NCBI GenBank assembly: GCA_016199525.1
Contig: JACQGL010000150.1
Location: 1-32,296 of the forward strand
DNA length: 32,296 bases
Origin: Armatimonadota bacterium
GTDB lineage: Bacteria; Armatimonadota; SYMT01; JACQGL01
Direction of reading: 5' to 3'
Made by a program: the position numbers and the translations under genes. Under the pieces are notes generated by a model. The model saw only the letters and a list, made by a program, of their open reading frames with translations. It had not been told where the DNA came from and ran no database searches. Shown here one piece after another: positions 11,218 through 29,758 of this stretch (its first letter is position 1; every line of letters begins with the position of its first letter).

Positions 11218-11726
11218 CACCCGGAATCTGCGGCATCTTCGCAACGATCTGCTCGCACCGCGCGATCCGCTCGCGTTCCCTGGGTTGGTAGTCCTCCGCG
11301 GGCGGGACGGCGATCCCTTCGCACTGCTCCACGTTGAACACGCAGTAGTAGCGCAGAATCGGCGCGCTGTGCACGTCTCCGCCCTCCTCTCGGGGCCGCT
11401 CCGTGAGCTTACAAGAGGTGACCAGGGAGGTCGTCCACACGTCGTCCGCGTTGCACCAGTACAACCCGCTCGCCGCTCCGTGAGCTTACAAGAGGTGACC
11501 AGGGAGGTCTTCTCGCCCTTGCGGACGTGGCCGGCCAGCTCCTTCCCCTGCTTGAACGTGAGCCACCAGGGCGATGCGTATCCCGACCCGGTCTGGACCA
11601 GGGGCAGGAGCAGGACGTTCATCCCGCGGTAGGGCCGGTGGTGTCCCAGGGCTTGTGCCAGGGGACGGTTCCTGCTTCCAGGGCGGCAGTGATCTTCCCC
11701 GTGACGATCTGGTATACGTCTGCCAT
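11218..11726 (-). pseudogene. ArdC-like antirestriction / ssDNA-binding protein, degraded and truncated
   Basis: The start at 11726 has GGGAGG upstream and gives MADVYQIVTGKITAALEAG then TVPWHKPW, the N-terminus of ArdC-type proteins. The rest is split over three frames: YRGMNVLLL, GYASPWWLTFKQGKELAGHV, RKGEKTSLVTSCKLTER, then APILRYYCVFNVEQCEGI and ARCEQIVAKMPQI. A stretch around the expected NLVSGKP is missing, a 77-bp insertion breaks the middle, and homology stops at about 11,220, exactly where the helicase gene ends. The metallopeptidase-like C-terminal half (HELAH region) is gone. ArdC proteins protect incoming plasmid DNA from restriction, so this is a relic of conjugative DNA now disrupted by the defence genes. 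Confidence 0.75.
11395..11509. repeat. 38-bp exact direct repeat (11,395-11,432 and 11,472-11,509), 77-bp offset
   Basis: GCCGCTCCGTGAGCTTACAA and the next 18 bases occur twice, separated by 39 bp of unrelated sequence. The repeat lies in the ArdC remnant, duplicates the peptide SLVTSCKLTER and, being 77 bp, shifts the frame. The copies are identical, so the event is recent relative to the gene's decay. Confidence 0.85.
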
Positions 11727-16209: not shown

Positions 16210-16229
16210 GCCCCGAAAGCTTTCGGGGC
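16210..16229. repeat. Palindrome family, class A copy (intergenic)
   Basis: GCCCCGAAAGCTTTCGGGGC is a perfect 20-bp palindrome between the nusG terminator and tRNA-Gln. It is the leftmost member of the family that recurs through the chromosomal part of the window, here with an extra outer G-C pair. Confidence 0.8.
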
Positions 16230-16244
16230 AGGCGGGCTACGCTA

Positions 16245-16315
16245 CTCCCGGGCATGGATTCGAACCACGATTAACGGATCCAAAGTCCGTTGTCCTACCT
16301 TTAGACGACCCGGGA
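16245..16315 (-). tRNA. tRNA-Gln(TTG)
   Basis: On the minus strand the acceptor arms TCCCGGG (16315-16309) and CCCGGGA (16252-16246) pair. The anticodon stem/loop ACGGA-CTTTGGA-TCCGT has anticodon TTG (16283-16281), and the T-loop GTTCGAATC is canonical. Discriminator is G; CCA is not encoded. Confidence 0.9.
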
Positions 16316-16328
16316 TCGGCACCGCCTC

Positions 16329-16357
16329 ATTATAAGCCTGGCGGCCCGGGGCGTCAA
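16329..16357 (-). promoter_or_regulatory. Promoter of tRNA-Gln
   Basis: Minus-strand TTGACG (16357-16352), a 17-bp spacer and TATAAT (16334-16329), 13 bp before the tRNA-Gln 5' end. Confidence 0.75.
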
Positions 16358-16358
16358 C

Positions 16359-16387
16359 TTGACAACAGCCTGAGCCGCACCTATAAT
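16359..16387 (+). promoter_or_regulatory. Consensus promoter of tRNA-Pro
   Basis: TTGACA (16359-16364), a 17-bp spacer and TATAAT (16382-16387), a perfect sigma70 consensus. Its -35 box is separated by one base from the -35 box of the divergent tRNA-Gln promoter. Confidence 0.85.
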
Positions 16388-16439
16388 GACTGCAGCCCAA
16401 CGAGACTTACGCCCGCGCGGGCGAAGTCACCCGGGCTAC

Positions 16440-16513
16440 CGGGGCGTGGCGCAGCTTGGTAGCGCACCGGTATGGGGTGCCGGTGGTCGCAGGTTCAAAT
16501 CCTGTCGCCCCGA
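16440..16513 (+). tRNA. tRNA-Pro(GGG)
   Basis: Acceptor arms CGGGGCG (16440-16446) and CGCCCCG (16506-16512) pair, with discriminator A. The D-arm is TGGCGCAGCTTGGTAGCGCA, the anticodon arm CCGGT-ATGGGGT-GCCGG carries GGG, and the T-loop is GGTTCAAATCC. CCA is not encoded. Confidence 0.88.
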
Positions 16514-16520
16514 TGTGGAT

Positions 16521-16552
16521 GGGCGTCTGATCCCCGATCGGACGCCCGTTTT
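16521..16552 (+). terminator. Intrinsic terminator of tRNA-Pro
   Basis: GGGCGTCTGATC (16521-16532) pairs with GATCGGACGCCC (16536-16547) with one G-U pair, followed by GTTTTCGTT. It lies 8 nt after the tRNA. Confidence 0.8.
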
Positions 16553-16626
16553 CGTTAGCTGGCCTCCTGGTTTCTGGTTGCGCGAAGTATGGGTCGGGGA
16601 CACGACCAGAACCTCTAAAGCCGAAG

Positions 16627-18129
16627 CTATTCCTGCGACTTGAACTCCAGCGCAGGTAACCGCGCCTCTTTCCCGGTGATAATTGTCACCACGACATCGG
16701 CGTTCTGCCAGCGCCCCTGGCGGCCGGACGGCGTTGCGTACCGGCGCAGCACCCGATAGGTGCCCGGCGCCAGATCCTCCAGGCGTGCTGCGCCTCCCGC
16801 GCTCAGCCATACATCCCGCCACCGGATCGGGCCCCAACCGCGCCCCTGCCGCGTGGCCATTCCCACTGCCAGCTTGCCCGGCGTTGCCGGCTTCCCATCG
16901 ATGAGCACCTGACACGCGAGGGAGCCCGTCCGCACCGCCGGGGCGGTCACCGGCGGCTTCGGTGCGGGCGCCGGCCGCTTCGGCGGCGACGGAAGCGGGA
17001 TGTCCGTCAGCCGCAGGCTGGTGACTTTCTCCAGATCGCTGCACAACAGCAGGTTCCACTCCAGGCGCACGGCGGGTGCCTGCATCCCGTGAAAGGTCAC
17101 CTGCCCTTCCCGCCACTCAACTTCCCCGCCGCCTCCCGAGCCGCCGTTCACCGAAGGGTAATAGCGGCGGCCGGACGCATCGACTGCCACGGGGGCCATC
17201 AGCCAGTCATCACGGTCGCGCGCCCTGACGGTCTGCCCGGCAGCCCACTGCACGCGGACCCGCGCGCTCGGTCCGCCATCGCCCCCGAACCCCGCCAGCT
17301 CCGGCGGCAGACCCTCGATCGGTTCTGCCGACCGCCAGTCCGCTACAGCGACCAGGACCCCCTGCTCCTGGCGAACGACGATGCGCTTCTCCAGGGGCAG
17401 CGGAATCGAAATCCGCACTTCCTGGACAGAGCGGTGGGCGTACAGGTCCGCCGTGAGCCAGCGCAGCCGCGTGGCGCGTGGATCCGGAGTGGGAAGCTGG
17501 CTGCTGACGATTCGCTCATCGGGAAACTGCACCCCTCCGGAGTAGTAGCCGCTCCCGTCCGGGGACGTCAGCCGGTTGCCCAGATCATCCTCGGCCTGGA
17601 CGTTGTCCAGAGTCGCTGCCGCCAGGCTCTCACCCGCGGGGCAGCGGCAGAGGATCTGGATGGTCAGGTTGCCGTACTGCTCGTCCTGGCCACCGCCAAG
17701 GAAGGTGCGCGCTCGCCCTTCGTAAACCTGGATGCGCTGCGCGATGACCTGGTAACCCTCCGGCGTGATAGCGCGGGGGGCATTGTCCTCGCCCGCGTTG
17801 GGTGCCACGCCGCCGAACCGGCGCAACTCATAGCCTGCCCCCGGGCGGTGCTGCGCCACCAGAGCAAACCGGTTACAGAGATCGCGCATCGCCTGGCCCA
17901 GGCCGACCTTCTCCCAGTGGAAGCTCGCTTTTTGGGAGGTGACGTCGTCGGGAGCGAACAGCTCGAGCGGTGCCCTGGCCGTCTCACCCAGGCGCTTGAC
18001 GATCTCGCGGAGTTCAAGGTTATCCACGTTCAGTGTGATGGCTGGGTTCTGCGCGCCCGCCGGATATATACCGGCCACCCAGATTAGCGCCGCCATCCCG
18101 ATACAGCGAGACCACCGCGAGACCTTCAT
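16627..18129 (-). CDS. Secreted protein with N-terminal STN/secretin-like domain
   Basis: A 500-residue exported protein. Residues 1-26 are a signal peptide (arginine-rich start, then MAALIWVAGIYPAGAQ with an AQ cleavage site). Residues 29-100, ITLNVDNLELREIVKRLGET through VGLGQAMRDLCNRFAL, follow the pattern of the secretin/TonB short N-terminal (STN) domain, in which a helix-strand unit precedes a binding region. The rest is beta-rich with glycine-rich loops (NGGSGGGGEVEW), a proline linker (PLPSPPKRPAPAPKPPV) and a final carboxypeptidase-regulatory-like strand set (SLACQVLIDGKPATPGKLAV...LAPGTYRVLRRY). AGGAGG lies 7 nt before the ATG. It follows the GT4 gene on the same strand after 87 nt. 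The exact function is unknown; an envelope role is likely. Confidence 0.7.
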   Translation of the reverse strand: MKVSRWSRCIGMAALIWVAGIYPAGAQNPAITLNVDNLELREIVKRLGETARAPLELFAPDDVTSQKASFHWEKVGLGQAMRDLCNRFALVAQHRPGAGYELRRFGGVAPNAGEDNAPRAITPEGYQVIAQRIQVYEGRARTFLGGGQDEQYGNLTIQILCRCPAGESLAAATLDNVQAEDDLGNRLTSPDGSGYYSGGVQFPDERIVSSQLPTPDPRATRLRWLTADLYAHRSVQEVRISIPLPLEKRIVVRQEQGVLVAVADWRSAEPIEGLPPELAGFGGDGGPSARVRVQWAAGQTVRARDRDDWLMAPVAVDASGRRYYPSVNGGSGGGGEVEWREGQVTFHGMQAPAVRLEWNLLLCSDLEKVTSLRLTDIPLPSPPKRPAPAPKPPVTAPAVRTGSLACQVLIDGKPATPGKLAVGMATRQGRGWGPIRWRDVWLSAGGAARLEDLAPGTYRVLRRYATPSGRQGRWQNADVVVTIITGKEARLPALEFKSQE

Positions 18130-18216
18130 CGCTACCTCCTACGCGGACAGGTACACGCTCGTACGGCTCCATTCGCCGCCCCCCAGGGGAGTTCCTGGCT
18201 CCCCCCCAGGCATCGC

Positions 18217-19287
18217 CTATCCCGCCACCCCCGCGCGCTGGTAGGCAGCCAGCGTGCCCTGGACCATCGCCGCTACAGTGAACGTGCGGCGGATGCGTTC
18301 CCGCGCCGCCTCCCCGAGCCGCCGGCGCAGGTCTGCATCCGCGGCGAGCTGGCCCAGGCGCTCCGCCAGCGCATCCGCGTCGCCGGGGGGTACCAGGTAG
18401 CCGGTGCGGCCGTCCGCCACGATCTCGGGGGTCCCACTAATCCGGCTGGCGATGGCGGGCAGGCCCAGGAAGCCGCCCTCCAGGAGCGTGCGCGGCAGCC
18501 CTTCCCCCTCCACCGCCGGCAGGGCCACCACATCCATCGCCGCGTACCACGGGAGGACGTCCGGCTGATAGCCGGCGAAGGTGACGCGCTCCGCAATGCC
18601 CAGCGCCTGCGCCTGGTTCTCCAGCGCGGGGCGGAGGTTGCCGTCGCCCACGCAGAGCGCGCGCACCGGTGGCCGCGTCTCGCCCAGCCGTGCCAGCGCC
18701 TCCAGCAGCACCGCGTGCCCTTTCCGTGGCGATAGGTGCGCCGCCACGCCCACGATCACGGCGTCCCGCGCCAGCCCAAGCCGCTCCCGGGCCACCTCCC
18801 GGGAGAGCGAGAGATGGTAACGCGCCGGGTCGATGCCGGTGTAAACCACGTCGATCCGGTCCGGGCTGATTCTCTGGGCGACCAGGTGATCCTTCACCGC
18901 CTGGGAGACGGCGATGATGCGCCGCGCGGCCAGGAAGCAGGCCGCAGAGTTCAGGGCGCGCACGTGCGCCACGCAGGGCACGCCCGACAGCAGACCGGCG
19001 TAGGAGCCCCACAGGGAGGCGGTGGAGAGGTGGGTGTGGAGGACGTCCGCGCGGTGACGCCGCGCCAGCCGCGCCAGGAGCGCCGGGGCGAGGAGGTTCG
19101 CCTTGCCGCCTATCGGGTGTCCCTCCGCCGCCAGGCCAAGCGAACGCGCTGCCGCGAGCAGCTCCACCCCCGGTTTGGCAATCACCACCACCTCATGGCC
19201 CGCGTGCGCCAGGTGCTCGCACAACGAGAGCATGGAGCGCTCTGCGCCCGCCATTCGCGCTGGGGTAATCACCTGCAGGATGCGCAT
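18217..19287 (-). CDS. GT4-family glycosyltransferase
   Basis: A 356-residue GT-B glycosyltransferase. The N-terminal Rossmann half begins MRILQVITPARMAGAERSML, with the glycine-containing loop that binds the acceptor, and includes DVLHTHLSTASLWGSYAGLL. The C-terminal donor-binding half has VGVAAHLSPRKGHAVLLEAL, RVTFAGYQPDVLPWYAAMD, and the E-x7-E motif in EGEGLPRTLLEGGFLGLPAI. GTPEIVADGRTGYLVPPGD is typical of GT4 enzymes. It transfers a sugar from a nucleotide donor at the inner membrane face, probably for surface polysaccharide or glycolipid. It sits upstream of the secreted protein on the same strand. The donor and acceptor cannot be read from the sequence. Confidence 0.88.
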   Translation of the reverse strand: MRILQVITPARMAGAERSMLSLCEHLAHAGHEVVVIAKPGVELLAAARSLGLAAEGHPIGGKANLLAPALLARLARRHRADVLHTHLSTASLWGSYAGLLSGVPCVAHVRALNSAACFLAARRIIAVSQAVKDHLVAQRISPDRIDVVYTGIDPARYHLSLSREVARERLGLARDAVIVGVAAHLSPRKGHAVLLEALARLGETRPPVRALCVGDGNLRPALENQAQALGIAERVTFAGYQPDVLPWYAAMDVVALPAVEGEGLPRTLLEGGFLGLPAIASRISGTPEIVADGRTGYLVPPGDADALAERLGQLAADADLRRRLGEAARERIRRTFTVAAMVQGTLAAYQRAGVAG

Positions 19288-19346
19288 CAGATCTGCTCGA
19301 TCGAATACGGCTTCTTACTCATTCCCTTGCTCTTACTCCTGAATGG

Positions 19347-20264
19347 TCATCCCGAAAGCTTTCGGCCCGTACGGGCCAGCGCCTCTCGCAGCCGCTGCAC
19401 CGCCTCTCGATAATAAGTAGGGGAGATCTCCATCCCCAGGAACGGCACCTCCAATCTGGCCGCCGCGAGGGCGGCACTGCCCAGGCCCAAGAACGGGTCC
19501 AGCGCCAGTCCCGAACGCTTTCGGGACAGGCCGTGGAGACGCATGCACATCTCCGCCAGACGCGGAGGGAAGGTGGCCGGATGCGGCCGATCCCGGTCCC
19601 GCCGTTGGATTGTTGAGTAGGGAATAAACCAGGTGTTACCACGGCAATGAAGGTCCCCCCCTGCAGCACGCCAGCGTGTGACGTTGCTCTTGTCGCGATA
19701 GGGCACGCCGATGGCCAGGCGGTCCAGGGCCACGTCTCCCTGGTGCGTGAGGTGGAACACATATTCCTGGCAGTCGTTCAGGTAGCGCGCGCTGTTGATC
19801 GGCTTGTAATGCCCCACCACCAGGTCGTTTTCCCACCCAGGGTAGTTGCCTATGTCCTCGTCCCGTCCCGAAAGCTTTCGGGATTCGGGAATGGCGATGG
19901 ACTTGATCCAGTGGATGGTGTTCTGCAGCCGGAAGTGACGGCGCATCACCTGCAGCACGTCGAATGGGCCCCAGGGATCGCTGGGCTTGCCCGCGATGTT
20001 GAGGAAAAACGATCCCTGGGGGGAGAGAACGCGCGCCACCGCCGCCGCCCAGCGATCCGTCCACTCCAGGTAGGCATCACGGGGTGCGGCATCGTCGAAC
20101 CCTTTGTAGCCGATGCCCAGGTTATAGGGCGGCGAGGTGATCACCACATCTACGGCGCCGGGTTCCAGCAGGGCGGGGAGCACCTCCAGGCAATCGGCCT
20201 GGATCAGGCGCACCACGGCGCCCGCCTCCCCCACACAGAAGCGCTGTTCTTCCCACGCGTCCAT
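19347..20264 (-). CDS. Beta-class DNA methyltransferase containing three palindrome copies
   Basis: A 305-residue amino-methyltransferase with catalytic motif IV TSPPYN at residues 43-48 and the SAM-binding motif DPFLGLGSAALAA near the C-terminus, the beta-class order. Strong family features include GSFFLNIAGKPSDPWGPFDV, WENDLVVGHYKPINSARYLN and HPATFPPRLAEMCMRLHGL. SPPY favours N4-cytosine or N6-adenine methylation. Three copies of the window's palindrome lie in the gene and encode SRKLSG between SIAIPE and RDEDIGNYPG, SRKRSG between LHGL and LALDPF, and GRKLSG immediately before the stop. From memory of the family these are loop positions where homologues are shorter. Its ATG overlaps the stop of pabB by one base (TGATG), so the two are co-translated. 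No cognate restriction gene is adjacent, so it may be an orphan methylase. Confidence 0.85.
   Translation of the reverse strand: MDAWEEQRFCVGEAGAVVRLIQADCLEVLPALLEPGAVDVVITSPPYNLGIGYKGFDDAAPRDAYLEWTDRWAAAVARVLSPQGSFFLNIAGKPSDPWGPFDVLQVMRRHFRLQNTIHWIKSIAIPESRKLSGRDEDIGNYPGWENDLVVGHYKPINSARYLNDCQEYVFHLTHQGDVALDRLAIGVPYRDKSNVTRWRAAGGDLHCRGNTWFIPYSTIQRRDRDRPHPATFPPRLAEMCMRLHGLSRKRSGLALDPFLGLGSAALAAARLEVPFLGMEISPTYYREAVQRLREALARTGRKLSG
19352..19377. repeat. Palindrome family, class A copy fused to GGCCCGTACGGGCC
   Basis: CCGAAAGCTTTCGG (19352-19365) forms the last codons (RKLSG) of the methyltransferase. It overlaps a second perfect palindrome GGCCCGTACGGGCC (19364-19377). Confidence 0.8.
19508..19527. 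repeat. Palindrome family, class A copy (one core mismatch)
   Basis: GTCCCGAACGCTTTCGGGAC, within the methyltransferase gene, encodes SRKRSG between LHGL and LALDPF. Confidence 0.8.
19861..19890. repeat. Palindrome family, class A copy with outer half-repeats
   Basis: TCCCGAAAGCTTTCGGGA (19866-19883), flanked by an extra TCCCG on the left and TTCGGGA on the right. It encodes SRKLSG in the methyltransferase. Confidence 0.85.
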
Positions 20265-21754
20265 CAGCGATCTGTCATCTTCAGTCCCAGCGCCTCCTGC
20301 ATTCCCCGCGCCTTGTGCAAGGTTTCCTCATACTCGGCGTCGGGATCGGAATCAGCCACAATGCCCCCGCCCGCGCAGAACGACACCTCCTCTCCCGCCA
20401 CCCTCATCGTGCGGATGGCGATGTTCCATTCCGCCGTGCCATCGAAGCCACAGTAGCCAATCGCCCCCGTGTAGACGCCCCGCTCGAACGGCTCCATCTC
20501 GGCGATGATCTCCATAGCCCGCACCTTGGGTGCGCCGGTGATCGAGCCGCCAGGGAAGCACGCCCGCAGGCAATCTATGGGGTGCACCTCCTCTCGCAGC
20601 CGTCCGCACACGGTGGCCACCAGGTGGTGCACGGTAGGATGGCTTTCCAACGCGCACAGGTCCGCCACGCGCACGCTGCCATAGTCGCACACGCGGCCCA
20701 GATCGTTGCGTTCCAGATCCACGATCATCACCAGCTCGGCGCGGTCCTTCGGGCTAGTGAGCAGGGCGCGGGCCAGATCGGCATCCGCCGCCGGATCCGC
20801 CCCACGCGGGCGCGTGCCCTTAATCGGCCGCGTTTCCACCTCTCGGCCCCGGATGCGCAGGAACCGTTCCGGCGAAGAGGAGAGCACCTGATGGTCGCCG
20901 GCGTCCACGTAGGCGGCGAACGGAGCGGAGCTGCGCTCCCGCAGCCGCCGGTAGAGTGCCCACGGATGGCCATCCCGACGTAGTCGGGACTGGAATCGCT
21001 GGCTGAGGTTCACCTGGTAGATATCGCCCGCAGCAATGTAGGCCAGCGCGCGCCGAACCGCCTGCGTGTAGGTGGCCCGCGTGTGAGAGGACGTTAGCCC
21101 CATTGCCGGGGAGCTGCACCACTCCGGAGTCGGGCCCGCGCCCCCTACGGGCCGTAGGGCCGCACGAGGTCCCGAAAGCTTTCGGGATAGCCAGCGCACG
21201 CGTTCCTCCGGCGAGCCGTGCCTATCACCGCCTGGCCCTGGCGCATCATCGCCGCTGGCGACCAGGTAGCCGGTCCCGGAGGCGTGGTCGAAGGCGTACA
21301 CCAGGTCGTAGAAGCCGATCCAGGCGTCCGGGAGCGCCGATGCGGCCGGAACCGGGCGGCGCCGACGCACCCGGGGTTCGACCTCCGTACCCAGTTCGTA
21401 GCCCCAATAACCCGCGGCCCCACCCACGAACGGAACCTCGGGATGAGGAGCAAGCGGATGGGCGCGCAGCAGGTCGCGGACCGTATCGAACAGGCCCCGA
21501 TGCGATCGGGACCAGCGGACGTCCTGAGACGCTCGGGACTGAAGGCAGAGAGCGCCATGGGATGCGGTCAGCACGCACTGCGGATCGATGAGCAGAAACG
21601 ACCACCGCCCCTGCCCACCGACCTCACTGGCGCTGTCGAGGAACACCAGGCCCCGCTCACCCAGCAGACGCGCGGCCAGGTCGACGGGCGCTGCGGCAGC
21701 GGTCCACGGCACCACTAGCGCCGACCGCCGTCCCGACATCGCCGACACAGGCAT
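20264..21754 (-). CDS. pabB: Aminodeoxychorismate synthase component I (PabB)
   Basis: A 496-residue chorismate-utilising enzyme. The start at 21754 has GGGGGGAG just upstream; the frame is open for another 1.6 kb, but that extension has no homology. The chorismate-binding domain is complete: RRALAYIAAGDIYQVNLSQR, FAAYVDAGDHQVLSSSPERF, RPIKGTRPRG, ELVMIVDLERNDLGRVCDYG, FPGGSITGAPKVRAMEIIAE and YTGAIGYCGFDGTAEWNIAI. The PIKGT lysine (Lys312) is the residue that distinguishes PabB from TrpE (PIAGT), so the product is 4-amino-4-deoxychorismate for folate. The N-terminal half carries palindrome-derived segments (SRKLSG after RVRWL; SRLRRDG within SQRFQ...HPW; SRASQD; SRSHRG). No pabA or pabC is adjacent; instead a DNA methyltransferase gene overlaps its stop. 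Confidence 0.9.
   Translation of the reverse strand: MPVSAMSGRRSALVVPWTAAAAPVDLAARLLGERGLVFLDSASEVGGQGRWSFLLIDPQCVLTASHGALCLQSRASQDVRWSRSHRGLFDTVRDLLRAHPLAPHPEVPFVGGAAGYWGYELGTEVEPRVRRRRPVPAASALPDAWIGFYDLVYAFDHASGTGYLVASGDDAPGPGGDRHGSPEERVRWLSRKLSGPRAALRPVGGAGPTPEWCSSPAMGLTSSHTRATYTQAVRRALAYIAAGDIYQVNLSQRFQSRLRRDGHPWALYRRLRERSSAPFAAYVDAGDHQVLSSSPERFLRIRGREVETRPIKGTRPRGADPAADADLARALLTSPKDRAELVMIVDLERNDLGRVCDYGSVRVADLCALESHPTVHHLVATVCGRLREEVHPIDCLRACFPGGSITGAPKVRAMEIIAEMEPFERGVYTGAIGYCGFDGTAEWNIAIRTMRVAGEEVSFCAGGGIVADSDPDAEYEETLHKARGMQEALGLKMTDR
20973..20989. repeat. Palindrome family, class B copy
   Basis: TCCCGACGTAGTCGGGA: 7-bp perfect arms around GTA, inside pabB, encoding SRLRRD. Confidence 0.75.
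21170..21187. repeat. Palindrome family, class A copy
   Basis: TCCCGAAAGCTTTCGGGA inside pabB, encoding SRKLSG after RVRWL. Confidence 0.85.
21496..21539. repeat. Two class B palindrome copies (one degenerate) in pabB
   Basis: CCCGATGCGATCGGG (21496-21510) and the degenerate GTCCTGAGACGCTCGGGAC (21521-21539) sit 10 bp apart in the 5' third of pabB, encoding SRSHRG and SRASQD. Confidence 0.65.
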
Positions 21755-21777
21755 CGCTCCCCCCGGAAGCCGCGCCG

Positions 21778-21884
21778 TCCCGATTGCACCGGGATTGCCC
21801 CCGTCCCGAATCCCGTCCCGAAAGCTTTCGGGATTCGGGACGGGATCTATGCGGCTTTCCCGCCCAGTCCCGATTACGTCGGGA
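21778..21884. repeat. Dense palindrome cluster upstream of pabB
   Basis: Three members in 107 bp: degenerate TCCCGATTGCACCGGGA (21778-21794); a 45-bp nested inverted repeat (21800-21844) built around TCCCGAAAGCTTTCGGGA (21816-21833); and TCCCGATTACGTCGGGA (21868-21884, one arm mismatch). The 260 bp between pabB and the next gene hold no ORF I can support. The cluster lies in the probable pabB leader. Confidence 0.8.
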
Positions 21885-22014
21885 TTCCGCGCACGCGCCC
21901 GTAACCCTTTCGCCGCACCGCTACTGGAAGCCCTCATCGCCACTGCGCACAGGGAAGCGGCTCTCACCCGCTCCCCCCGGCCAGCCACCATGATACGAGC
22001 GCGCCGCGCGCCTG

Positions 22015-22530
22015 TCAAAGGGGAGAGCAGTCCCGACGGCGTCGGGACCACGCCAGCACGAAGAAAGCCGCGGCGCCCATCAGCATCGCCCAGTCGCCCG
22101 GAGTGGAAAGAGTCATGCCCTGCTGGCGTAGCTTTGGGCCCGCCAGTAACGCCAGCGAGAGGCCGAACAGCAGCGTCACTGCCGCGATGCCCATGCCGAG
22201 GTTGAGCCCCCACCGCCGCCGGAGGCAGACGCCCACCGCCGGTAGCCACCAGAGAAGGGCGTAAATCGCCACCGGTATCGCCAGCAATGGACCGGATTGC
22301 AGCTCCAGAACCTCGCCGGAGTCCAGAGTAAGCGCCTCGGCACGAGGAGGTCCTATACCGAGGGATATGGCCTGCCAGGTGGCCGCTACGGCGATCCCTG
22401 CTGCTATCCCGGCGGCCATCCAGCGCTGCCATTCCCCCCCCTGGGGCCGCTTTTCGCCTGCGAGCTCTTTCCCTGTGGCGAGCGGAGAAGGCTCTGGCCC
22501 GACTGTTCGCGCTTTCCGTTTTCTTGACAC
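22015..22530 (-). CDS. Small multi-pass membrane protein
   Basis: A 171-residue protein from a GTG start at 22530 with AAGGGAAAAGGA upstream. A basic N-terminus (MSRKRKARTV) is followed by four predicted membrane segments: WMAAGIAAGIAVAATWQAIS, LLAIPVAIYALLWWLPAVGV, LGMGIAAVTLLFGLSLALLA and WAMLMGAAAFFVLAW. The last residues (SRRRRDCSPL) come from a class B palindrome, so the repeat forms the C-terminus. I recognise no family. It lies upstream of pabB on the same strand but is separated from it by the palindrome cluster. Divergent to it is the epimerase gene, whose -35 box overlaps its start codon. Confidence 0.55.
   Translation of the reverse strand: MSRKRKARTVGPEPSPLATGKELAGEKRPQGGEWQRWMAAGIAAGIAVAATWQAISLGIGPPRAEALTLDSGEVLELQSGPLLAIPVAIYALLWWLPAVGVCLRRRWGLNLGMGIAAVTLLFGLSLALLAGPKLRQQGMTLSTPGDWAMLMGAAAFFVLAWSRRRRDCSPL
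22030..22048. repeat. Palindrome family, class B copy
   Basis: GTCCCGACGGCGTCGGGAC: 8-bp perfect arms around GGC, forming the C-terminal codons (SRRRRD) of the small membrane protein. Confidence 0.8.
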
Positions 22531-22552
22531 CGGATTCCTTTTCCCTTAAGAT
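22524..22552 (+). promoter_or_regulatory. Promoter of the TIM-barrel epimerase gene
   Basis: TTGACA (22524-22529), a 17-bp spacer and TAAGAT (22547-22552), about 100 nt before the start codon. The -35 box overlaps the GTG start of the divergent membrane protein. Confidence 0.65.
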
Positions 22553-22651
22553 GGGGCGGCCGCCTGGTTCCTTCCCGCTGGCCGGCGGCCGCGGGGCGCG
22601 CCGTGCGGTCGGTAGCAACTGCTTTCCCGCCACGTAGGGGACGGAAAGAGA

Positions 22652-23509
22652 ATGCAGCCCGCGGTGATTACGGACGAGGTTTCCCAGGACTTTGAGCATG
22701 CCCTCGATGTGATGGCCGAGTACGGCGTGCGCACCGCCGAGTTGCGCGGCCTCTGGGGCACCAACATCATGGACCTCGCGCCCGCGTCGCTGGCTCGCGC
22801 CCGACGGGCCCTCCGGGAGCGGGGCATGAGCGTGTGCGGCATCGCCAGCCCGATTTACAAGTGCGACCTGCACCCTGGCGCTGCTACTGATGTCAAGAGT
22901 TCGCTCCACCTGGCCACCGAACAGGGCCGCGAGGCGCAGCTCCAGCTGCTGGAGCGCGCCTTTGATCTCTGCCGCTATTTTGATACGACGCAGGTGCGCA
23001 TCTTTGCCTTCTGGCGGCACGAAGAACCGACGCGGGAAATCCTGGCCGAGATCGAGGCGGCGCTGCACCCCGCCGTCCGCCGTGCAGAGCAGGCGGGGTT
23101 TACGCTCGCCCTGGAGAACGAGCACGCCTGCTACCTCGGCACCGGCGCAGAGGCGGCGAGCCTGCTTGCCAGGATTAACTCCCCTGCCCTGCGGTGTGTG
23201 TGGGATCCCGGCAACGCCTTTATGCTGGGTGAGATCCCCTACCCGAACGGCTACGGGGCGGTGCGGCCCTACCTCCAGCACGTGCATGTGAAAGATGCGA
23301 TCAGGGATGCGGACGGCCAGCGGCGGTGGACGATTGTCGGCGAGGGTGATATCGACTACGCGGGGCAGTTCGCGGCCCTCGCCCGCGATGGCTATGCCGG
23401 CTATGTCTCTCTGGAGACGCACTACCAGCCGCCGAATGGCGATATTGAAGCGGGCTCCCGGCTGTGCCTGGAAGCAATGCTTCGCCTCATGCGTACGGCC
23501 ATCGCCTGA
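22652..23509 (+). CDS. Sugar phosphate isomerase/epimerase family TIM-barrel protein
   Basis: A 285-residue xylose-isomerase-like TIM barrel (AP endonuclease 2 superfamily). Expected strand-end signatures are in order: PAVITDEVSQDFEHALDVMA, RTAELRGLWG, VCGIASPIYKC, VRIFAFWR, FTLALENEHACYLGTG (metal-binding Glu), CVWDPGNAFM (Asp), YLQHVHVKDA (His/Asp) and YVSLETHYQPP (Glu). The four metal ligands therefore appear intact. Such enzymes isomerise or epimerise small sugars or inositol derivatives, or act as hydroxypyruvate isomerases; the substrate cannot be assigned. Start at ATG 22652 preceded by GGAAAGAGA. The enolase-superfamily dehydratase and the SDR within 5 kb would suit a sugar-acid pathway, although they are not in the same operon. 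Confidence 0.85.
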   Translation: MQPAVITDEVSQDFEHALDVMAEYGVRTAELRGLWGTNIMDLAPASLARARRALRERGMSVCGIASPIYKCDLHPGAATDVKSSLHLATEQGREAQLQLLERAFDLCRYFDTTQVRIFAFWRHEEPTREILAEIEAALHPAVRRAEQAGFTLALENEHACYLGTGAEAASLLARINSPALRCVWDPGNAFMLGEIPYPNGYGAVRPYLQHVHVKDAIRDADGQRRWTIVGEGDIDYAGQFAALARDGYAGYVSLETHYQPPNGDIEAGSRLCLEAMLRLMRTAIA

Positions 23510-23587
23510 TCTCTGAATTCACCCCGGCGCGAGCGAAGGCCTGCCGCTAACATACGGGTACGCTCACTACGGAGACGCGGCGGCGCG

Positions 23588-23644
23588 GAGAACGGGAGAG
23601 TGGGAGAAGGCATCGGGACGCCATTCTCCTATGCTCTTGTTCTC
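23588..23644 (+). repeat. Long inverted repeat (imperfect, many G-U pairs) before the foldase gene
   Basis: GAGAACGGGAGAGTGGGAGA (from 23588) and the segment ending CTCTTGTTCTC (to 23644) form a roughly 24-bp stem around ATCGGGACG. Most mismatches become G-U pairs in + strand RNA, so the structure favours that transcript. It may terminate the epimerase transcript or structure the foldase leader; there is no clear T-run. Confidence 0.45.
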
Positions 23645-23704
23645 TCGCTCCCCCATCCCTCCGCGTGGCGCAGGCAACGGCGACCCTGAATTTGGGAGGC
23701 ACCC

Positions 23705-25342
23705 ATGTCTTTGGTCCGGATGCGACGGAAGATGCGGCGGGCCATCCGGCCCGTGATGTTCGTATTCGCGCTGGTTTTTGCCGTGGGCGCCGTGTATGTA
23801 TTCACCCCCACCACAGCGCAATTCATGGGCGCGGGCTCGACGCAGGAGGAGTTTGCCACCGTTAACGGCGTCCCCATCCAGCGCCTGGACTTTCAGCAGC
23901 GCATCGAGGAGATCATGCGGGGCCAGGCCCTGCCCATATCCATGCAGTTCTTCATGACGCGCATGGCCTGGGATGGCGCGGTCGAGGACGTGATCCGGTC
24001 CCAGGGCGCCCAGAAGATCGGCGTCAGCGTCAGCGATGGGGAGGTGAGGCAGCAGACCGATGCGATGATCGACGCGCGCCTCCAACAGGAGGGTGAGGGG
24101 CTATCTCCAAAGGACCAGGAGGAGCGGCGCAGCCAGCTCCGGTCGGCAGTCATCTATCAGCCGGACACTGTCCGCCGCCAGCTGCTGCGCCAGCGCCTGC
24201 AGGAAGCCCTCACCGCCAAGGCCCGCCCCGTGGAAGTGCGCGTTTCTCACGTGCTGATAAACCTGGAGAAACGCACGCCGGAACAGGCCCTGCAACAGGC
24301 ACGCTCCATTGCCCAGCAGCTCCGCGGCGGCGCGGACATTGCCGCCCTGGCCCGCGCGCGCTCGGATGACGCGGGCAGTAAGGACAAAGGAGGCGACGTT
24401 GGCTGGGTAACGCCCAGATCCAGTTTCGTACCGGAGTTCCTCGGCGCGGCGCTGCAACTCAAGAAAGGCCAGGTCTCCGATCCGGTACGCAGTGAGTTCG
24501 GCTACCATGTGCTGAAGGCGATGGACGAACGCCCCTGGCAGCCGACAGAAAAAGGGGCCGATAAGTGGAGCCCCGAGGAACGGCGCAGGAAGCAGGAGGA
24601 GTACCAGCAGTCCGTCGGCCAAGCGATCGCACGGGGCTTCGTAGAGGAGCTGAAGCGCAGCGCGCGGATCGAGCCCCGGTCGCCGTTCGTCAAAGGCGTG
24701 CTTCTGGAAGAGCAGACGGGTGGTGATGCTCTCTCGATGGCGTTCGGCGCCCCCGCCGACGCGAAGCCGCTGGGTGAGAAGGAGCAGCAGGTGCTCCGAC
24801 AGGCGGCGGAACAGTACGAGCTGGCGCTCGGCGAGGGGGGCAGCGAGACGGTGGGCCTGGAATACCACCTGGGCCAGATCTACACGCGCCTGAAGGATTG
24901 GCCGAAGGCGGAGGCAGTCCTCCGGAAGGCCCTGGACCGGAGCGCCGCCGCCGAGATCTACCTGCAGCTGGGGGAGGTGTACCGGGAGATGGGCCGCAAG
25001 CCGGATGCGGTCAAGGCCTACCAGGATGCCTCCCGGAACGCCTACGACCAGGGCAGCTTGCACGACCATCTGGCGAAGAAGTTCCGCGAACTCGGCCGCA
25101 AGGATTTGGCGGCGGCGGAAACGCGCCTCTACGCGAAGTACCAGAAGGAGCAGGAAGCCGAGCGCCAGCGCCAGGAGCAGCTCCGCAAACAGGCCGAAAA
25201 GCAAGCCAGAGAGGCCGAGGCAAAGGCGAAAAAAGAGGCCGCTGAGAAGGCCAGGCAGGCGGCGAAAGCAGCGGCGTCAACACCGAACCAGGCGGCTAAC
25301 GCGCCCGCGCCGGCCAACGCACCCACGCCCGCCACCCGGTAA
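23705..25342 (+). CDS. Membrane-anchored parvulin-type peptidyl-prolyl isomerase with TPR and coiled-coil tail
   Basis: A 545-residue PpiD/SurA/PrsA-type foldase with GGGAGG 8 nt before ATG. Residues 17-37 (VMFVFALVFAVGAVYVF) are a membrane anchor after a basic start. Residues 50-170 form a SurA_N-like helical chaperone region (VNGVPIQRLDFQQRIEEIMR). Residues 178-272 are a parvulin domain with VRVSHVLINLE, the GGDVGWV motif, FVPEFLGAALQLKKGQVSDP and SEFGYHVLKA. Residues 365-475 contain TPR-like repeats (LEYHLGQIYTRLKDWPKAEA, AAEIYLQLGEVYREMGRKPD). The tail from 478 is a Lys/Glu/Ala coiled coil ending in an Ala/Pro-rich stretch. It should help fold exported proteins outside the membrane. The TPR-plus-coil extension is longer than in standard PrsA/SurA. 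Confidence 0.85.
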   Translation: MSLVRMRRKMRRAIRPVMFVFALVFAVGAVYVFTPTTAQFMGAGSTQEEFATVNGVPIQRLDFQQRIEEIMRGQALPISMQFFMTRMAWDGAVEDVIRSQGAQKIGVSVSDGEVRQQTDAMIDARLQQEGEGLSPKDQEERRSQLRSAVIYQPDTVRRQLLRQRLQEALTAKARPVEVRVSHVLINLEKRTPEQALQQARSIAQQLRGGADIAALARARSDDAGSKDKGGDVGWVTPRSSFVPEFLGAALQLKKGQVSDPVRSEFGYHVLKAMDERPWQPTEKGADKWSPEERRRKQEEYQQSVGQAIARGFVEELKRSARIEPRSPFVKGVLLEEQTGGDALSMAFGAPADAKPLGEKEQQVLRQAAEQYELALGEGGSETVGLEYHLGQIYTRLKDWPKAEAVLRKALDRSAAAEIYLQLGEVYREMGRKPDAVKAYQDASRNAYDQGSLHDHLAKKFRELGRKDLAAAETRLYAKYQKEQEAERQRQEQLRKQAEKQAREAEAKAKKEAAEKARQAAKAAASTPNQAANAPAPANAPTPATR

Positions 25343-25357
25343 CCACTCTGCGGAATC

Positions 25358-25390
25358 GACACCACGGAGTTTATTAAACTCCGTGGTGTC
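25358..25390. terminator. Bidirectional hairpin between convergent genes
   Basis: GACACCACGGAGTTTA (25358-25373) and TAAACTCCGTGGTGTC (25375-25390) are perfect 16-bp arms around one T. Outer bases (GCGGAATCGA / TCGAATTCTGC) pair further with a bulge. It sits between the foldase stop and the convergent dehydratase stop, so it likely terminates both. T-runs are short. Confidence 0.6.
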
Positions 25391-25405
25391 CGTCGAATTC
25401 TGCGA

Positions 25406-26554
25406 CTACTCGCCCTCCCGGCGCTCCCAGCCTGGCTTGAACAGCGGCAGGAAGTACATCTTCTCGTACGGGTGCTTGCGGGCCTCTTCGAGGTTGAGGC
25501 TTACGCCCAGACCCGGCCGCTCGGGGATCTCCAGGTAACCATCCACTACGTGGGCGGGGTGATCGATCAGCCGCTGCTCCCACTCCACGTTGAACTCGTC
25601 GAAGATTTCCTGCACGTAGAAGTTCGGGGTGCAGGCAGCGAGCTGCAGGCACATCGCTGTGGAAACTGGGCCCTGCGCGTTGTGTGGCGCCACCACGGCG
25701 TAGTGGGCTTCGGCCATCGCGCATACCTTGCGCGCCGCCAGGATGCCACCCAGGTGGTGTATCTCCGGCTGGTAGATGGAAACCACGTTGTGGTCCATCA
25801 GCTCGGCGAACTGGTGCAGGGAGCTAAAGCTCTCCCCCGTAGCAATTGGCACCGGGGAGTGGCGCGCCACCTCCGCCATCGCTGGGATGTGCTGGTGGGG
25901 CACCGGCTCCTCAAACCAGGAAGGGCGACAGGGCGCCATCCGCTCGGCCAGCTTGATCGCCTGCGCCACCGTGAAACGGCAGTGGCCCTCGACGAATAGG
26001 TCCACCTGCGTCCCCACCGCCTCGCGCACCGCGGCGATGATGTCGATAGAGAGGTCTTCGTCCAGGCGGTCCTGCGCCATCCAGGCAGCGCCAAACGGAT
26101 CGAACTTCAGGGCCGTATAGCCCCGCGCCGCGACCTTCTGCGCCAGTTCTGCGAATGCCTCCGGCTGGCGTTCCCCGCGATACCAGCCGTTGGCGTAGGC
26201 GCGGATCTTCTCGTGGCAGCGGCCGCCGAGGAAGTTATGGATCGGCTGCCCGAGGGCCTTGCCGATGATGTCCCAGCACGCGACCTCCACGGCGGCCACG
26301 GCGCCCTTGTGCACCTGGCCACCCTCGGAAAACAGGTCGCGGACCATCTTCTGGGTGATGATCTCGATCTGGAACGGATCGGATCCGAGGAAGAACCGAT
26401 CCAGCTCCCGGATCACCGCCTCGGTGGGCCGAGCGAAGCCGTGCACGGTGCCTTCGCCCACGCCGTCGATCCCCTCGTCCGTGTGTAGCACCAGGAAGAC
26501 CCAGTTCTTCCACGGGTTGCCGACTAGGTAGGTATCGTAGCTGGTGATTTTCAT
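25406..26554 (-). CDS. Enolase-superfamily sugar-acid dehydratase (mandelate racemase / galactonate dehydratase type)
   Basis: A 382-residue enzyme of the mandelate racemase/muconate lactonising group. The N-terminal capping domain is MKITSYDTYLVGNPWKNWVF. The barrel holds GYTALKFDPFGAAW (the catalytic-loop KFDPF of galactonate/gluconate-type dehydratases), VDLFVEGHCRF, PSWFEEPVPHQ (metal-binding Glu), IATGESFSS (Glu), and VAPHNAQGPVSTA (catalytic His). It should abstract the alpha proton from a sugar acid and eliminate water. KFDPFG and the HNAQGP loop are close to D-galactonate dehydratase, but the exact acid is not decided by the sequence. It is transcribed convergently with the foldase gene and stands alone on its strand. 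Confidence 0.85.
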   Translation of the reverse strand: MKITSYDTYLVGNPWKNWVFLVLHTDEGIDGVGEGTVHGFARPTEAVIRELDRFFLGSDPFQIEIITQKMVRDLFSEGGQVHKGAVAAVEVACWDIIGKALGQPIHNFLGGRCHEKIRAYANGWYRGERQPEAFAELAQKVAARGYTALKFDPFGAAWMAQDRLDEDLSIDIIAAVREAVGTQVDLFVEGHCRFTVAQAIKLAERMAPCRPSWFEEPVPHQHIPAMAEVARHSPVPIATGESFSSLHQFAELMDHNVVSIYQPEIHHLGGILAARKVCAMAEAHYAVVAPHNAQGPVSTAMCLQLAACTPNFYVQEIFDEFNVEWEQRLIDHPAHVVDGYLEIPERPGLGVSLNLEEARKHPYEKMYFLPLFKPGWERREGE

Positions 26555-26923
26555 ACTGGTCTATACCCCATCGCTTGCTTTCCCGTCCGCGTCTGCGGGT
26601 AAGTCTTCTTCCGCGCTTCTAGCGGCTGTCCTTCGCGCCGGATCTCCACACTCACCTCCAGACAGGTTCGCGCCTCTTGGCAAAGAGATACGCTGACGTG
26701 TTGGCCGAAGGGAGGGAGATTTCCTCGCCCGTGAGGCGGCCCACCAGCACGGCCGCAGCACTCTCGGGGTCCGTAGCCCTGCCGCTCCGCCAGGGGGGAT
26801 GGGAGAGGTCCGATGCGGTATCCTGGCGAACTGAGCGGCGATCCCGACTGCGTCGGGATGCGGATTCTCGCTGAAGCAGCTCACCCGCCGGGTGAGGACC
26901 CATTGCCCCAGCAGGAGGCCCCG
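26555..26923. other. Intergenic region with one palindrome, no gene
   Basis: About 370 bp between divergent genes. Open frames here are arginine-rich and lack RBSs. A class B palindrome lies at 26841-26859, about 65 nt before the next start codon. I found no clear promoter. Confidence 0.5.
26841..26859. repeat. Palindrome family, class B copy
   Basis: ATCCCGACTGCGTCGGGAT: 8-bp perfect arms around TGC, in the leader of the small secreted protein gene. Confidence 0.8.
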
Positions 26924-27295
26924 ATGCATGCCCGCGCCCTGCCCCTGGTCGCGCTGCTCTCCGTGATCGCCGCCACGGCTACCGTGGCACCGGCGGCCAC
27001 GCCCCGAAAGCCGGTGCCGAAGATCGTTTCCACGCTTATCGGCACCTGGAAGGGTGCCGATCCCGATTCGGGGGGGGAAGGGGTGGTTATCTTTCAGAAG
27101 AACGGCCGCTGCACGTGGAAGGCCCCGTCCACCAGCGACCGAGGCACCTGGTCCGCAGATAGCAGGCAGCTGTACCTGAAAACCAGTAGCGGCGCCGGGG
27201 GCCCGATTCCCTACCGCCTCCTGAACAAAGGCAAGATTCTGGAGTTGACCGGGCATGACGGGCAGAAGATCCGGCTGCGCAAGCAGCGGCGTTAG
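26924..27295 (+). CDS. Small secreted beta-rich (lipocalin-like) protein
   Basis: A 123-residue protein. The start at 26924 was chosen for the GGAGG 9 nt upstream; the frame is open further upstream, but that part lacks coding character. Residues 1-24 are a signal peptide (MHARALPLVALLSVIAATAT then VAPAAT). The mature part, IGTWKGADPDSGGEGVVIFQ, GRCTWKAP, GTWSADSRQLYL, KILELTGHDGQKIRLRKQ, is a run of short strands like the small lipocalin-like domains that open with G-x-W. It is a periplasmic or extracellular protein of unknown role. The SDR gene follows after 50 nt on the same strand. Confidence 0.65.
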   Translation: MHARALPLVALLSVIAATATVAPAATPRKPVPKIVSTLIGTWKGADPDSGGEGVVIFQKNGRCTWKAPSTSDRGTWSADSRQLYLKTSSGAGGPIPYRLLNKGKILELTGHDGQKIRLRKQRR

Positions 27296-27345
27296 GCGCG
27301 CGTGCCACGGCTGATTCCGGGTGGAACCAGATTCTTGAATAGGCA

Positions 27346-28059
27346 ATGGCAGGACTACTCCAAGATCGACACGCAGTGGTGACGGGCAGCGGACGCGGGA
27401 TCGGCGCCGCCATTGCGCGGGCGTTCGCGCGGGAGGGAGCGCACGTAGCCGTAGCCGCCCGCAGCGAGGCAGAGGTCGCCGCCGTGGCACGGGAGATCGA
27501 GGCGCTCGGCCGGCGCGCCCTCGCCATTCCCGCCGACCTCACCGATGAGGCGTCCGTAGCCACGCTGGCCGAACGGGTGCTGGGCGCCTGGGGCGGCGTG
27601 GATATCCTGGTCAACAACGCGGGCTGGGGCGTGTTCAAGCCGGTCATCGAGATGACCCTGGCGGAGTGGGAAGGGACGGTAGCGGCTAACCTGCGTACCG
27701 CTTTCCTCTGTACGCGGGCGTTCGCACCCTCCATGAGGGCGCGCGGGGGCGGCGTGATCATCAACCTCTCCTCGCGGAGCTCCCACCGCGGCAAGCCCGA
27801 TTACGGCCCCTACGCTGCCGCCAAGGCGGGGATCAATAACCTCACCGAGGCGCTGGCCGCAGAGCTGAAGCCGTATCACATCCGCGTGGTCGCCATCGCC
27901 CCCGGGGGCGTGGCCACCCGTATGCGCGCCGCCTACCTCCCCGACGAGGACCCGTCGAAGGTCATGCAGCCGGACACGGTGGCGGACGTAGCGGTCTTCC
28001 TCGCCTCCGATGCGGCCCGCGGCATCAGCGGGGCGGTGGTGGATGTGAATCATTACTGA
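27346..28059 (+). CDS. Short-chain dehydrogenase/reductase (SDR)
   Basis: A 237-residue classical SDR. The cofactor motif TGSGRGIG is at residues 13-20, NNAG follows in DILVNNAGWGVF, the catalytic serine lies in VIINLSSRSSHRG and the Y-x3-K pair is Tyr156/Lys160 in YGPYAAAKAG. AVAARSE after the second strand, with basic residues, suggests NADP(H) preference. The C-terminus (PDTVADVAVFLASDAARGIS, GAVVDVNHY) is the usual tail. It reduces or oxidises a small carbonyl/alcohol, of the FabG/3-oxoacyl reductase-like group; the substrate is unknown. The RBS is weak. It may be co-transcribed with the small secreted protein upstream. Confidence 0.88.
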   Translation: MAGLLQDRHAVVTGSGRGIGAAIARAFAREGAHVAVAARSEAEVAAVAREIEALGRRALAIPADLTDEASVATLAERVLGAWGGVDILVNNAGWGVFKPVIEMTLAEWEGTVAANLRTAFLCTRAFAPSMRARGGGVIINLSSRSSHRGKPDYGPYAAAKAGINNLTEALAAELKPYHIRVVAIAPGGVATRMRAAYLPDEDPSKVMQPDTVADVAVFLASDAARGISGAVVDVNHY

Positions 28060-28130
28060 CAGGGGAGGCGCGCCTATTCCGCCTCCATCTTCGCGATCGC
28101 GGCGGCAAACCGAGAGAGTGCGAGCCAGGA

Positions 28131-29537
28131 TTACCCGCTGGCCACCTCGCCCGGCTTCACCGTTCGGCGCCACTCCTTCATGCTGCGGACGAAATCCCAC
28201 CCCTCGGCCACCAGCAGGGCCACCAGGGCGCTCTGCAAAGCGAGAACCCAGTAACGGCGGTAGGCGTAAATGTAGGGATACCACCCCACCACCAGGGCCG
28301 TGAGCAGGAACCCCACCGTCAACGCCGCCACTGCCGGCCGCCGCCACGCCCGGATTGCCAGGGCCGCTGCCGTCAGCCAGGTCATCAGATTGAGGAGCGT
28401 ACGGAGCGCAGTGGTATCGAACAGGATCAGCATATGTCCCACTGCGAAGCAGGTTCCGGCCAGGGTCGGCAGTGCACCGGCAGCCGCCGCGGCCCACAGG
28501 CGGATGCGAGTGCGGGCCAGAAGGACAAACGCGACCACCCCCAGGATGGCGCCTGCCAGTTGCGGCCACATCCCCTTGATGATCAGCAGCAGGGCGACCT
28601 GCGGCGCCGCAATGAGTGCGAAGTAGCGGGGCCACCCGGTGAAATGGGCGCCCGTGTTAAGCGATCCCGACAGCGCCAACAGCCGCGCGCCGATCAGCAA
28701 CGCCAGCGCGATCCCGTAGGCTGCGGCAACCGGCCGCCACCGGGCCCGCGCCTCCAGGGCGAGAAGACAGGCCATTGGGGCCACCACGTAGGCGATTTCC
28801 TTGAACAGCACGGCGACCGAGAAGGCGGCCACTGCTGCGTACAGCCAGCGATGCTCGCCGGTGTGGAGGAAGTGCTTCACCAGGATCAGGGACAGGAGGC
28901 TGAACGCCAGGGAGCCGAGGTCCATCTGGGCGGGCCACCAGGTGAGCTCCCAGCTGATCACCGTGTCATTGGCCAGCCAGGGGCTGCCGAATAACACCAC
29001 GGCCCCGCCCCCGAGGCCTAGTCGTGCCCAGAGCGGCCCACCTGCCAGGTGGGCGGTAAGCAGCGCTACCAGCACCACGTTCGTCAGGTGCAGCAACAGG
29101 CTCAGCCAGCAATAGAGGTCGTCCCGCTCGCCCCAGAGTCGGTACTGAAGATAGAAGAGGGTGCTGGTGAGGGGGCGATAGTGGCGGGTGTCGGGGACAC
29201 CCTCTTCTTCGCTGATCCAGGGTCCGATCCACCAGCCAAGGATCTCTCTGAAGCTTGCCTGGCGCGCGTGCCGCTGGGGCACTTCGATATCGCTGCCCTT
29301 CTTCTCGTAGTGCCAGAACGCTCCGGGCCAGCCGCGGGCGGGGTACCGCCCGGCGTGGAAGCTGGCAACCACGAGAGCGAAGAGGACGAGCGCGGCCCAG
29401 CCCAGTGCCGGTCGGGACGCCAGCCCCAACGCCGGCCGCATAAGCGCCGTCAGTCCCGATGCCATCGGGATGCACAGCCTCCGTCTGTCTGGCTTGGGAT
29501 CAGGCGCCTGCTGGTCCTCCGTGCCTGGTGGGGCCAT
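28131..29537 (-). CDS. Polytopic membrane protein, GT-C glycosyltransferase-like
   Basis: A 468-residue integral membrane protein with about ten hydrophobic segments. After the first segment (GWAALVLFALVVASFHAG) comes a periplasmic loop with RHYRPLTSTLFYLQYRLWGE and YCWLSLLLHLTNVVLVALL, a pattern of the PMT/GT-C superfamily found in many putative lipid-linked-sugar glycosyltransferases. Later segments include LWAAAAAGALPTLAGTCFAV and WYPYIYAYRRYWVLALQSAL. ATG 29537 is the longest start; ATG 29465 (Met25, inside a class B palindrome) is a plausible alternative because the first 24 residues are polar and unlike a membrane protein. Its role is probably sugar transfer to an exported substrate, but this is inference from topology and the loop motif. 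Confidence 0.6.
   Translation of the reverse strand: MAPPGTEDQQAPDPKPDRRRLCIPMASGLTALMRPALGLASRPALGWAALVLFALVVASFHAGRYPARGWPGAFWHYEKKGSDIEVPQRHARQASFREILGWWIGPWISEEEGVPDTRHYRPLTSTLFYLQYRLWGERDDLYCWLSLLLHLTNVVLVALLTAHLAGGPLWARLGLGGGAVVLFGSPWLANDTVISWELTWWPAQMDLGSLAFSLLSLILVKHFLHTGEHRWLYAAVAAFSVAVLFKEIAYVVAPMACLLALEARARWRPVAAAYGIALALLIGARLLALSGSLNTGAHFTGWPRYFALIAAPQVALLLIIKGMWPQLAGAILGVVAFVLLARTRIRLWAAAAAGALPTLAGTCFAVGHMLILFDTTALRTLLNLMTWLTAAALAIRAWRRPAVAALTVGFLLTALVVGWYPYIYAYRRYWVLALQSALVALLVAEGWDFVRSMKEWRRTVKPGEVASG
29454..29470. repeat. Palindrome family, class B copy
   Basis: TCCCGATGCCATCGGGA: 7-bp perfect arms around GCC at the 5' end of the membrane protein gene; the ATG of Met25 lies inside it. 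A weaker relative, CCCGCTATCGGG, is at 29564-29575. Confidence 0.75.
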
Positions 29538-29758
29538 CCTGGTCCTCGCTCCCGCCAGACCATCCCGCTATCGGGCAGCCGCAAGCGGACCTTGGTGAAT
29601 GCCCATACCAAGAAGAAACGAGTGAGGCAACGAACTCAGAAGGACCGGGGTACTACTGCCTGTGGAACGTTGTTTTCTCACCTGTCGCTGCCTCGTAGAG
29701 TCGTCTTCTCTTTTCTAGCCGCACTGATGCGCCTTCATTGACGGCCTAGTGAACCGAT

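Follow-up and report, generated by a model that had tools for sequence, protein, structure and literature searches.

Very small hairpins dispersed through an Armatimonadota genome, often at short insertions in conserved proteins

We analyzed a window of 32,296 nt, positions 1 to 32,296 of contig JACQGL010000150.1 (assembly GCA_016199525.1, Armatimonadota bacterium), contig 123 in a draft genome of 3.74 Mb that is 88% complete. The window carries, among others, a tRNA-Gln, an N4/N6 DNA methyltransferase gene and a gene for anthranilate synthase component I (TrpE), and in and between its genes lies a set of very small palindromes, the subject of this article. We think it probable that these form one family of hairpin elements, very small and non-autonomous. 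A sequence-only reading had claimed about 14 copies in 13 kb with TCCCGA/TCGGGA arms. All 14 are present, with coordinates off by at most 2, and the CCCGA/TCGGG arms are intact in 11 of them and degenerate in three (at 19350, 21522 and 21778). That reading sorted the copies into class A, an 18-mer with a six-base spacer, and class B, TCCCGAY-NNN-RTCGGGA. We keep these names for counting and call copies T..A or C..G forms after their outermost stem pair. With up to 3 mismatches, class A is seen 6 times in the window against 0.01 expected by chance; with 1 mismatch, class B is seen 9 times against 0.23.

The palindromes, to which no strand is assigned, begin with a C..G form (CCCCGAAAGCTTTCGGGG, 16211..16228) with intact arms and flanks CAGGC and GCAGGC, 17 nt beyond the 3' end of tRNA-Gln. 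Three copies lie inside the methyltransferase gene (PF01555; 19347..20264, minus strand). A degenerate class A copy (TCCCGAAAGCTTTCGGCC, 19350..19367) makes up the final codons, GRKLSG-stop, a tail missing from homologues. A class A variant with the loop ACGCTT (TCCCGAACGCTTTCGGGA, 19509..19526) and a class A copy (19866..19883, within the 30-mer 19861-19890) mark insertions of 2 and 8 residues relative to 13 of 13 homologues. Four copies lie in trpE (20264..21700, minus strand, start approximate): class B TCCCGACGTAGTCGGGA at 20973..20989, with 2 extra residues relative to 28 homologues; a class A copy at 21170..21187, in the variable linker joining two TrpE domains, where an insertion is not decidable; a class B-like copy with outer pair C..A (CCCCGATGCGATCGGGA, 21495..21511), a 4-residue insertion in the N-terminal domain; and a degenerate class B copy (TCCTGAGACGCTCGGGA, 21522..21538), where no insertion was seen. 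Upstream of trpE are a degenerate class B copy (TCCCGATTGCACCGGGA, 21778..21794) and two class B copies (TCCCGATTACGTCGGGA, 21868..21884; TCCCGACGGCGTCGGGA, 22031..22047). Between the first two of these lies a 30-mer (TCCCGTCCCGAAAGCTTTCGGGATTCGGGA, 21811..21840, plus strand) that contains the class A copy 21816-21833 and is identical to 19861-19890. The remaining class B copies are TCCCGACTGCGTCGGGA (26842..26858), with the most frequent triloop, and TCCCGATGCCATCGGGA (29454..29470), near the 5' end of an open reading frame without a Pfam match (28131-29537, minus strand).

The window's first 16 kb, which include genes of defence type, contain no perfect copy; this would be the pattern expected of an element of the host lineage if that segment was acquired later. 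The defence-type cluster spans 1093-11215 and includes a TIR-domain protein (1093-1752), a HipA-like kinase (2251-3138), a Schlafen/AlbA_2 protein (3979-4992) and a 1740-residue helicase (5993-11215) whose best match is DruE of Druantia. Beyond it, at 11395-11512, are two copies of a 41-bp direct repeat, 98% identical and 77 bp apart.

The home genome as a whole holds more than 400 copies of the 16-20-nt hairpin, within and between genes, so the dispersed family that had been proposed from the window is borne out. Exact class A occurs 104 times, class B 124 times and TCCCGA-N4-6-TCGGGA 315 times, each against 0 for a reversed-pattern control, while CCCCGA-N4-6-TCGGGG occurs 121 times against 3. 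Arm, loop, flank and location statistics come from a 1.32-Mb sample of the genome, partly picked for copy-bearing contigs, so that densities are somewhat high while the whole-genome counts are unaffected. In this sample, TCCCGA-N4/N5/N6-TCGGGA occurs 8/57/90 times with enrichment confined to spacers of 4, 5 and 6, the C..G form occurs 42 times at spacer 6, and eight control arms matched in base composition give counts of 0-3 each for spacers 4-6. The sequence-only reading had proposed a count against a Markov background, and the palindromes stand far above that level, with 200 perfect copies observed and 5 in a first-order Markov simulation.

Many in-gene copies sit where the proteins have residues that homologues lack. 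We aligned the proteins containing 17 in-gene copies to homologues from the same phylum, and 13 of the 17 copies adjoin query-specific residues; permutations gave a mean of 2.1 and a maximum of 7, and 0 of 5000 reached 13. In the 305 residues of the methyltransferase, the only two query-specific insertions are the two at palindromes described above (the 13 homologues are 51-63% identical). Palindromes also mark additions of 5 residues in alanine racemase and in MoeA, 4 in a P-type ATPase (4 homologues), 3 in an amine oxidase, 3 or 4 in a pyruvyl transferase, 2 in a DUF6807 protein, 2 in a CobQ-like protein (2 homologues) and 1 in NADH dehydrogenase. An FGGY kinase has about 2 extra residues twice by manual count, with neither listed by the automatic zone test, and a transposase holding a copy shows no net change (2 homologues). 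Removing 24 nt at 19866 (ATTCCCGA...CGAG) leaves GCC ATT CCC GAC GAG and restores the length of the homologues; these five codons would be the pre-insertion sequence.

An empty site within the home genome gives the same picture at the DNA level. Below, L-numbers denote contigs of this genome and G-numbers other genomes of the phylum. The filled loci L141:6584-6800 and L273:17766-17980 match L146 at about 90% and 87% over 172-175 positions, and L146 lacks exactly 22 nt relative to L141:6648 and L273:17832, namely the 16-bp palindrome CCCGAAAGCTTTCGGG and a second GCCTGC. A second candidate, L255 versus L164, is consistent but diverged. An exact 6-bp flanking direct repeat accompanies 10 of the 42 C..G copies (shuffles: mean 2.2, maximum 6). 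The clean insertion that had been suggested as a check is thus found for the C..G form in intergenic sequence only; inside genes the net change ranges from 0 to +8 residues. The 30-mer is common only to the copies at 19866 and 21816, 1.95 kb apart, and absent elsewhere in the 1.32 Mb, as if one copy derived from the other. Taken together, the coincidence with protein insertions and the intragenomic empty site argue that the copies are insertions and not words produced by mutation in the manner of HIP1.

The unit is a palindrome of 16-20 bp, R-T-CCCGA-(loop)-TCGGG-A-Y or C-CCCGA-(loop)-TCGGG-G, that folds into a stem of 7-8 bp; the loop has 2 nt, 3 nt (usually GNA on one of the strands) or 4 nt (AGCT). 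As single-stranded DNA the unit forms hairpins of -6.4 to -7.8 kcal/mol. Mini-hairpins of the type C(GNA)G have unusual stability in DNA. The family keeps a fixed stem, (T/C)CCCGA, with symmetric one-base arm variants found 0-2 times each against 155 for the unaltered arms, the exception being outer T to C (45). Spacers of 4 read C-NN-G, those of 5 Y-NNN-R and those of 6 A-NGCN-T, mostly AAGCTT (95 of 138 six-base loops), and the triloop is GNA or its complement TNC in 42 of 57 T..A copies, where 11% is expected. The closing pair covaries (C-G in 32 and T-A in 26 of 69), as does the outer pair, which is T-A or C-G with few mixed pairs. Spacer lengths of 4, 5 and 6 bp, with ends that pair with each other, fit a hairpin better than a dimer site of fixed spacing. 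The base immediately outside class A is G or A at a frequency of 0.92, no frame of the class A unit contains a stop codon, and extending the palindrome into the flanks reveals no excess pairing. Both forms of the sequence-only reading exist, but they are loop variants of one hairpin rather than separate classes, and the list was incomplete, as there are also a form with a 2-nt loop and the C..G form.

Copies are clustered, with 29 neighbour pairs within 250 bp against 7.2 expected (maximum 14). At L254:17376-19131, a single open frame of 1147 codons carries eight palindromes of mixed loop classes within about 1.7 kb; the one segment of it that was scanned, 17491-18288, has no Pfam match. The contig end at L146:13838-13916 is a perfect palindrome of nearly 80 bp (GTAGCCCGCCCG...CGGGCGGGCTAC) with a class A copy at its centre; this long palindrome may be genuine or may be an artefact of assembly at the contig end. 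A larger dispersed repeat, GTAGCGC...GCGCTACCCACTGAAC, occurs at L138:12439-12612, L133:14139-14317, L246:8019-8167, L139:2129-2277 and L242:4223-4370; its interior differs by swapped blocks, several with a mini-palindrome, and it looks like a composite family of miniature inverted-repeat transposable elements (MITEs) or of repetitive extragenic palindromes (REPs). A CRISPR-like array, whose repeat includes GGTTCACCCCCACATGCGTGGGG and recurs at least 12 times with a 61-bp period, lies near a contig end at L148:16706-17440.

The home genome is the only one of its family among the genomes compared. Class A is absent from 60 relatives, in line with a lineage-restricted family. It is also absent from IMG/VR, where class B has 2 single matches, and we therefore rejected viral carriage. 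In GTDB contigs the exact class A 18-mer is found mostly as single copies, in Bacteroidota and others, which we treat as unrelated or terminator-like. Across the phylum the arm pattern in its general form is unevenly distributed, with 60 copies in G033, 59 in G066, 52 in G118, 50 in G067, 42 in G250 and 31 in G249, and 0-5 in most other genomes. Counts differ between genomes of one genus as well: the 50 copies of G067 contrast with 11 in G096, and 27 copies in G208 with 3 in G084 and 7 in G091. G066 has TCCCGAAGCTTCGGGA and G208 mostly TCCCGAC-NN-GTCGGGA, so the stem sequence is shared and the loops are lineage-specific. In seven contigs of G066 (C19, C39, C53, C76, C109, C136 and C221), TCCCGAAGCTTCGGGA or a one-base variant occurs in pairs 124-147 bp apart, as if these were the ends of a small element. 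In the home genome there is no fixed spacing, and we rejected the idea that its copies are paired ends of one larger element.

A codon score places 51 of the 215 copies sampled (24%) in coding sequence against 58% of random positions, so coding sequence is avoided yet often hit. Could the hairpins act at the RNA level, for example as terminators or processing sites? They are stable, and more than half of the copies lie outside well-scored coding sequence. However, many lie inside open reading frames, all three frames are used and the two loop orientations are balanced on the coding strand (10 TNC, 9 GNA), which argues against an RNA function, and no T-rich tract was found in the flanks. We consider this explanation very improbable. 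Barely more credible are GTAG-type REPs moved by a RAYT (Y1 HUH) transposase. These share with our family the format of short many-copy hairpins (PMC3733652); GTAGCGCAGGC...GCCTGCGCTAC repeats with GTAG/CTAC are present in the home genome, the L146 empty site sits in one of that type, and GTAGC/GCTAC lies within 40 nt of 13 of 42 C..G copies (random 6%), above random but a minority. Near T..A copies it occurs in only 12 of 155, about as at random; most copies bear no GTAG tag, and no Y1_Tnp match was found in the 88%-complete genome.

An alternative that we regard as unlikely is that TCCCGA/TCGGGA is a recognition word, HIP1-like or bound by a protein or methyltransferase that reads DNA, which arises mainly by point mutation and is retained through selection or a mutational bias. 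The nearly invariant arms would fit (200 perfect copies against about 56 one-mismatch copies over background), as would the fact that scattered genomes elsewhere in the phylum have the arm around other loops, and the many copies in or at the edge of genes. The protein insertions, the L146 empty site and the variable spacers speak against it. Origin in situ is a little harder still to credit: replication template switching would copy a TCCCGA half-site back into a second arm, adding a few bases, with no transfer between loci. The small, variable net insertions, the perfect arms and the native TCCCGA inferred at the methyltransferase insertion agree with this. Template switching at short inverted repeats is documented in coding genes, where it homogenizes the arms and inverts spacers (PMC8604942). 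Yet any quasi-palindrome should respond, while only this stem is enriched, and the process accounts neither for AAGCTT as the prevailing six-base loop nor for a 16-bp insertion with a 6-bp direct repeat. It may nevertheless explain the upkeep of perfect arms, which may otherwise be a sign of youth.

Several observations weigh against a mobile hairpin family. Net insertion in genes varies (0, 3, 6, 9, 12, 15 and 24 nt) and is never 18 nt, which does not support clean insertion of a fixed-length unit inside genes; this variability is the main weakness, and palindrome growth in situ could be another source of it. T..A forms show no target-site duplication at 3-10 bp, and only one distinct empty site, with its two filled loci, is clear at the DNA level. 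As noted, the Y1_Tnp domain (PF01797, REP-type/RAYT) was not found, in a genome of which 12% is missing; other enzymes and a parent element were not searched for.

In the reading that we favour, the unit is transferred to new sites, where a little target sequence is lost or duplicated, and new copies would be made through a single-stranded hairpin intermediate. In-gene copies would persist if they alter the length by a multiple of three, and arm-to-arm template switching would keep the arms perfect. In a bolder version, to which we lend only tentative credence, a hairpin of less than 20 bp would multiply through host replication or repair without a dedicated transposase: one strand would fold on itself and be copied elsewhere at short TCCCGA homologies, and conserved enzymes genome-wide would repeatedly have gained residues in this way, with the same stem and other loops in unrelated families of the phylum.

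The mini-hairpins work like known small palindromic elements (REP/dRS3/RPE, mitochondrial GC clusters) and are assigned to none of them. Elhai et al. in 2008 reportedly described SDR5 and other small dispersed repeats (SDRs) of cyanobacteria, with evidence of mobility. SDR5 inserts precisely inside HIP1 (PMC4390886). No fixed target was seen for the T..A forms here, and it is by description, not by sequence or structure, that we set the two apart. The most similar in size, in position within genes and in having no transposase are the CGTC REPs, dRS3 of Neisseria and RPE-6/RPE-4 of Rickettsia, likewise very small C/G-rich stem-loops with intragenic units and no dedicated transposase (PMC3733652). 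Those have a stem of 8-9 bp with A-T as the first two pairs, a loop of 4-5 nt and a CCA tail (PMC3733652), whereas the stem here starts (T/C)CCCGA, has loops of 2-4 nt and an R/Y flanking base, and lacks the CCA tail. As for the terminal tag of such REPs, CGTC (or TGTC/CCTC) at one end, CGTC is found ahead of the stem or overlapping it in 52 of 87 class A copies, 17 of 57 class B copies and 1 of 8 copies with a 2-nt loop. Rickettsia palindromic elements (RPEs) also insert in frame into unrelated conserved genes, but as a block of about 150 bp (PMC10969869), the hallmark being 100-150 bp with a conserved encoded peptide; our unit of 16-20 bp changes length by 0-24 nt and uses all three frames, unlike such a block. 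A MITE would have terminal inverted repeats and a target-site duplication; here a 6-bp direct repeat accompanies the C..G form only. GC clusters of yeast mitochondria are small G+C-rich palindromes with a putative target-site duplication, merging and shuffling, and a mechanism that is unknown there too, but they are organellar, mostly intergenic and about 42 bp (PMC4478555). HIP1 is likewise a palindrome over-represented in genes, but an 8-mer without insertion (PMC4390886), whereas insertions and a variable spacer are seen here and gain is not by substitution alone. The likeness to RPEs drawn by the sequence-only reading therefore holds for in-gene insertion, and that to HIP1 does not, given the protein insertions and the empty site.

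A literature search of partial coverage found nothing on Chloroflexi dispersed palindromes or on mini-palindromes. Very small mobile hairpins are known elsewhere; the present family, with its small size and its frequent presence within enzymes, turned up in none of the sources searched. How very small palindromes such as dRS3, cyanobacterial SDRs and mitochondrial GC clusters spread is a long-standing open question. With more than 400 copies, many of them in enzymes with readable homologues, rules of insertion length, target and loop become measurable here, and the family would also supply conserved proteins with short in-frame insertions.

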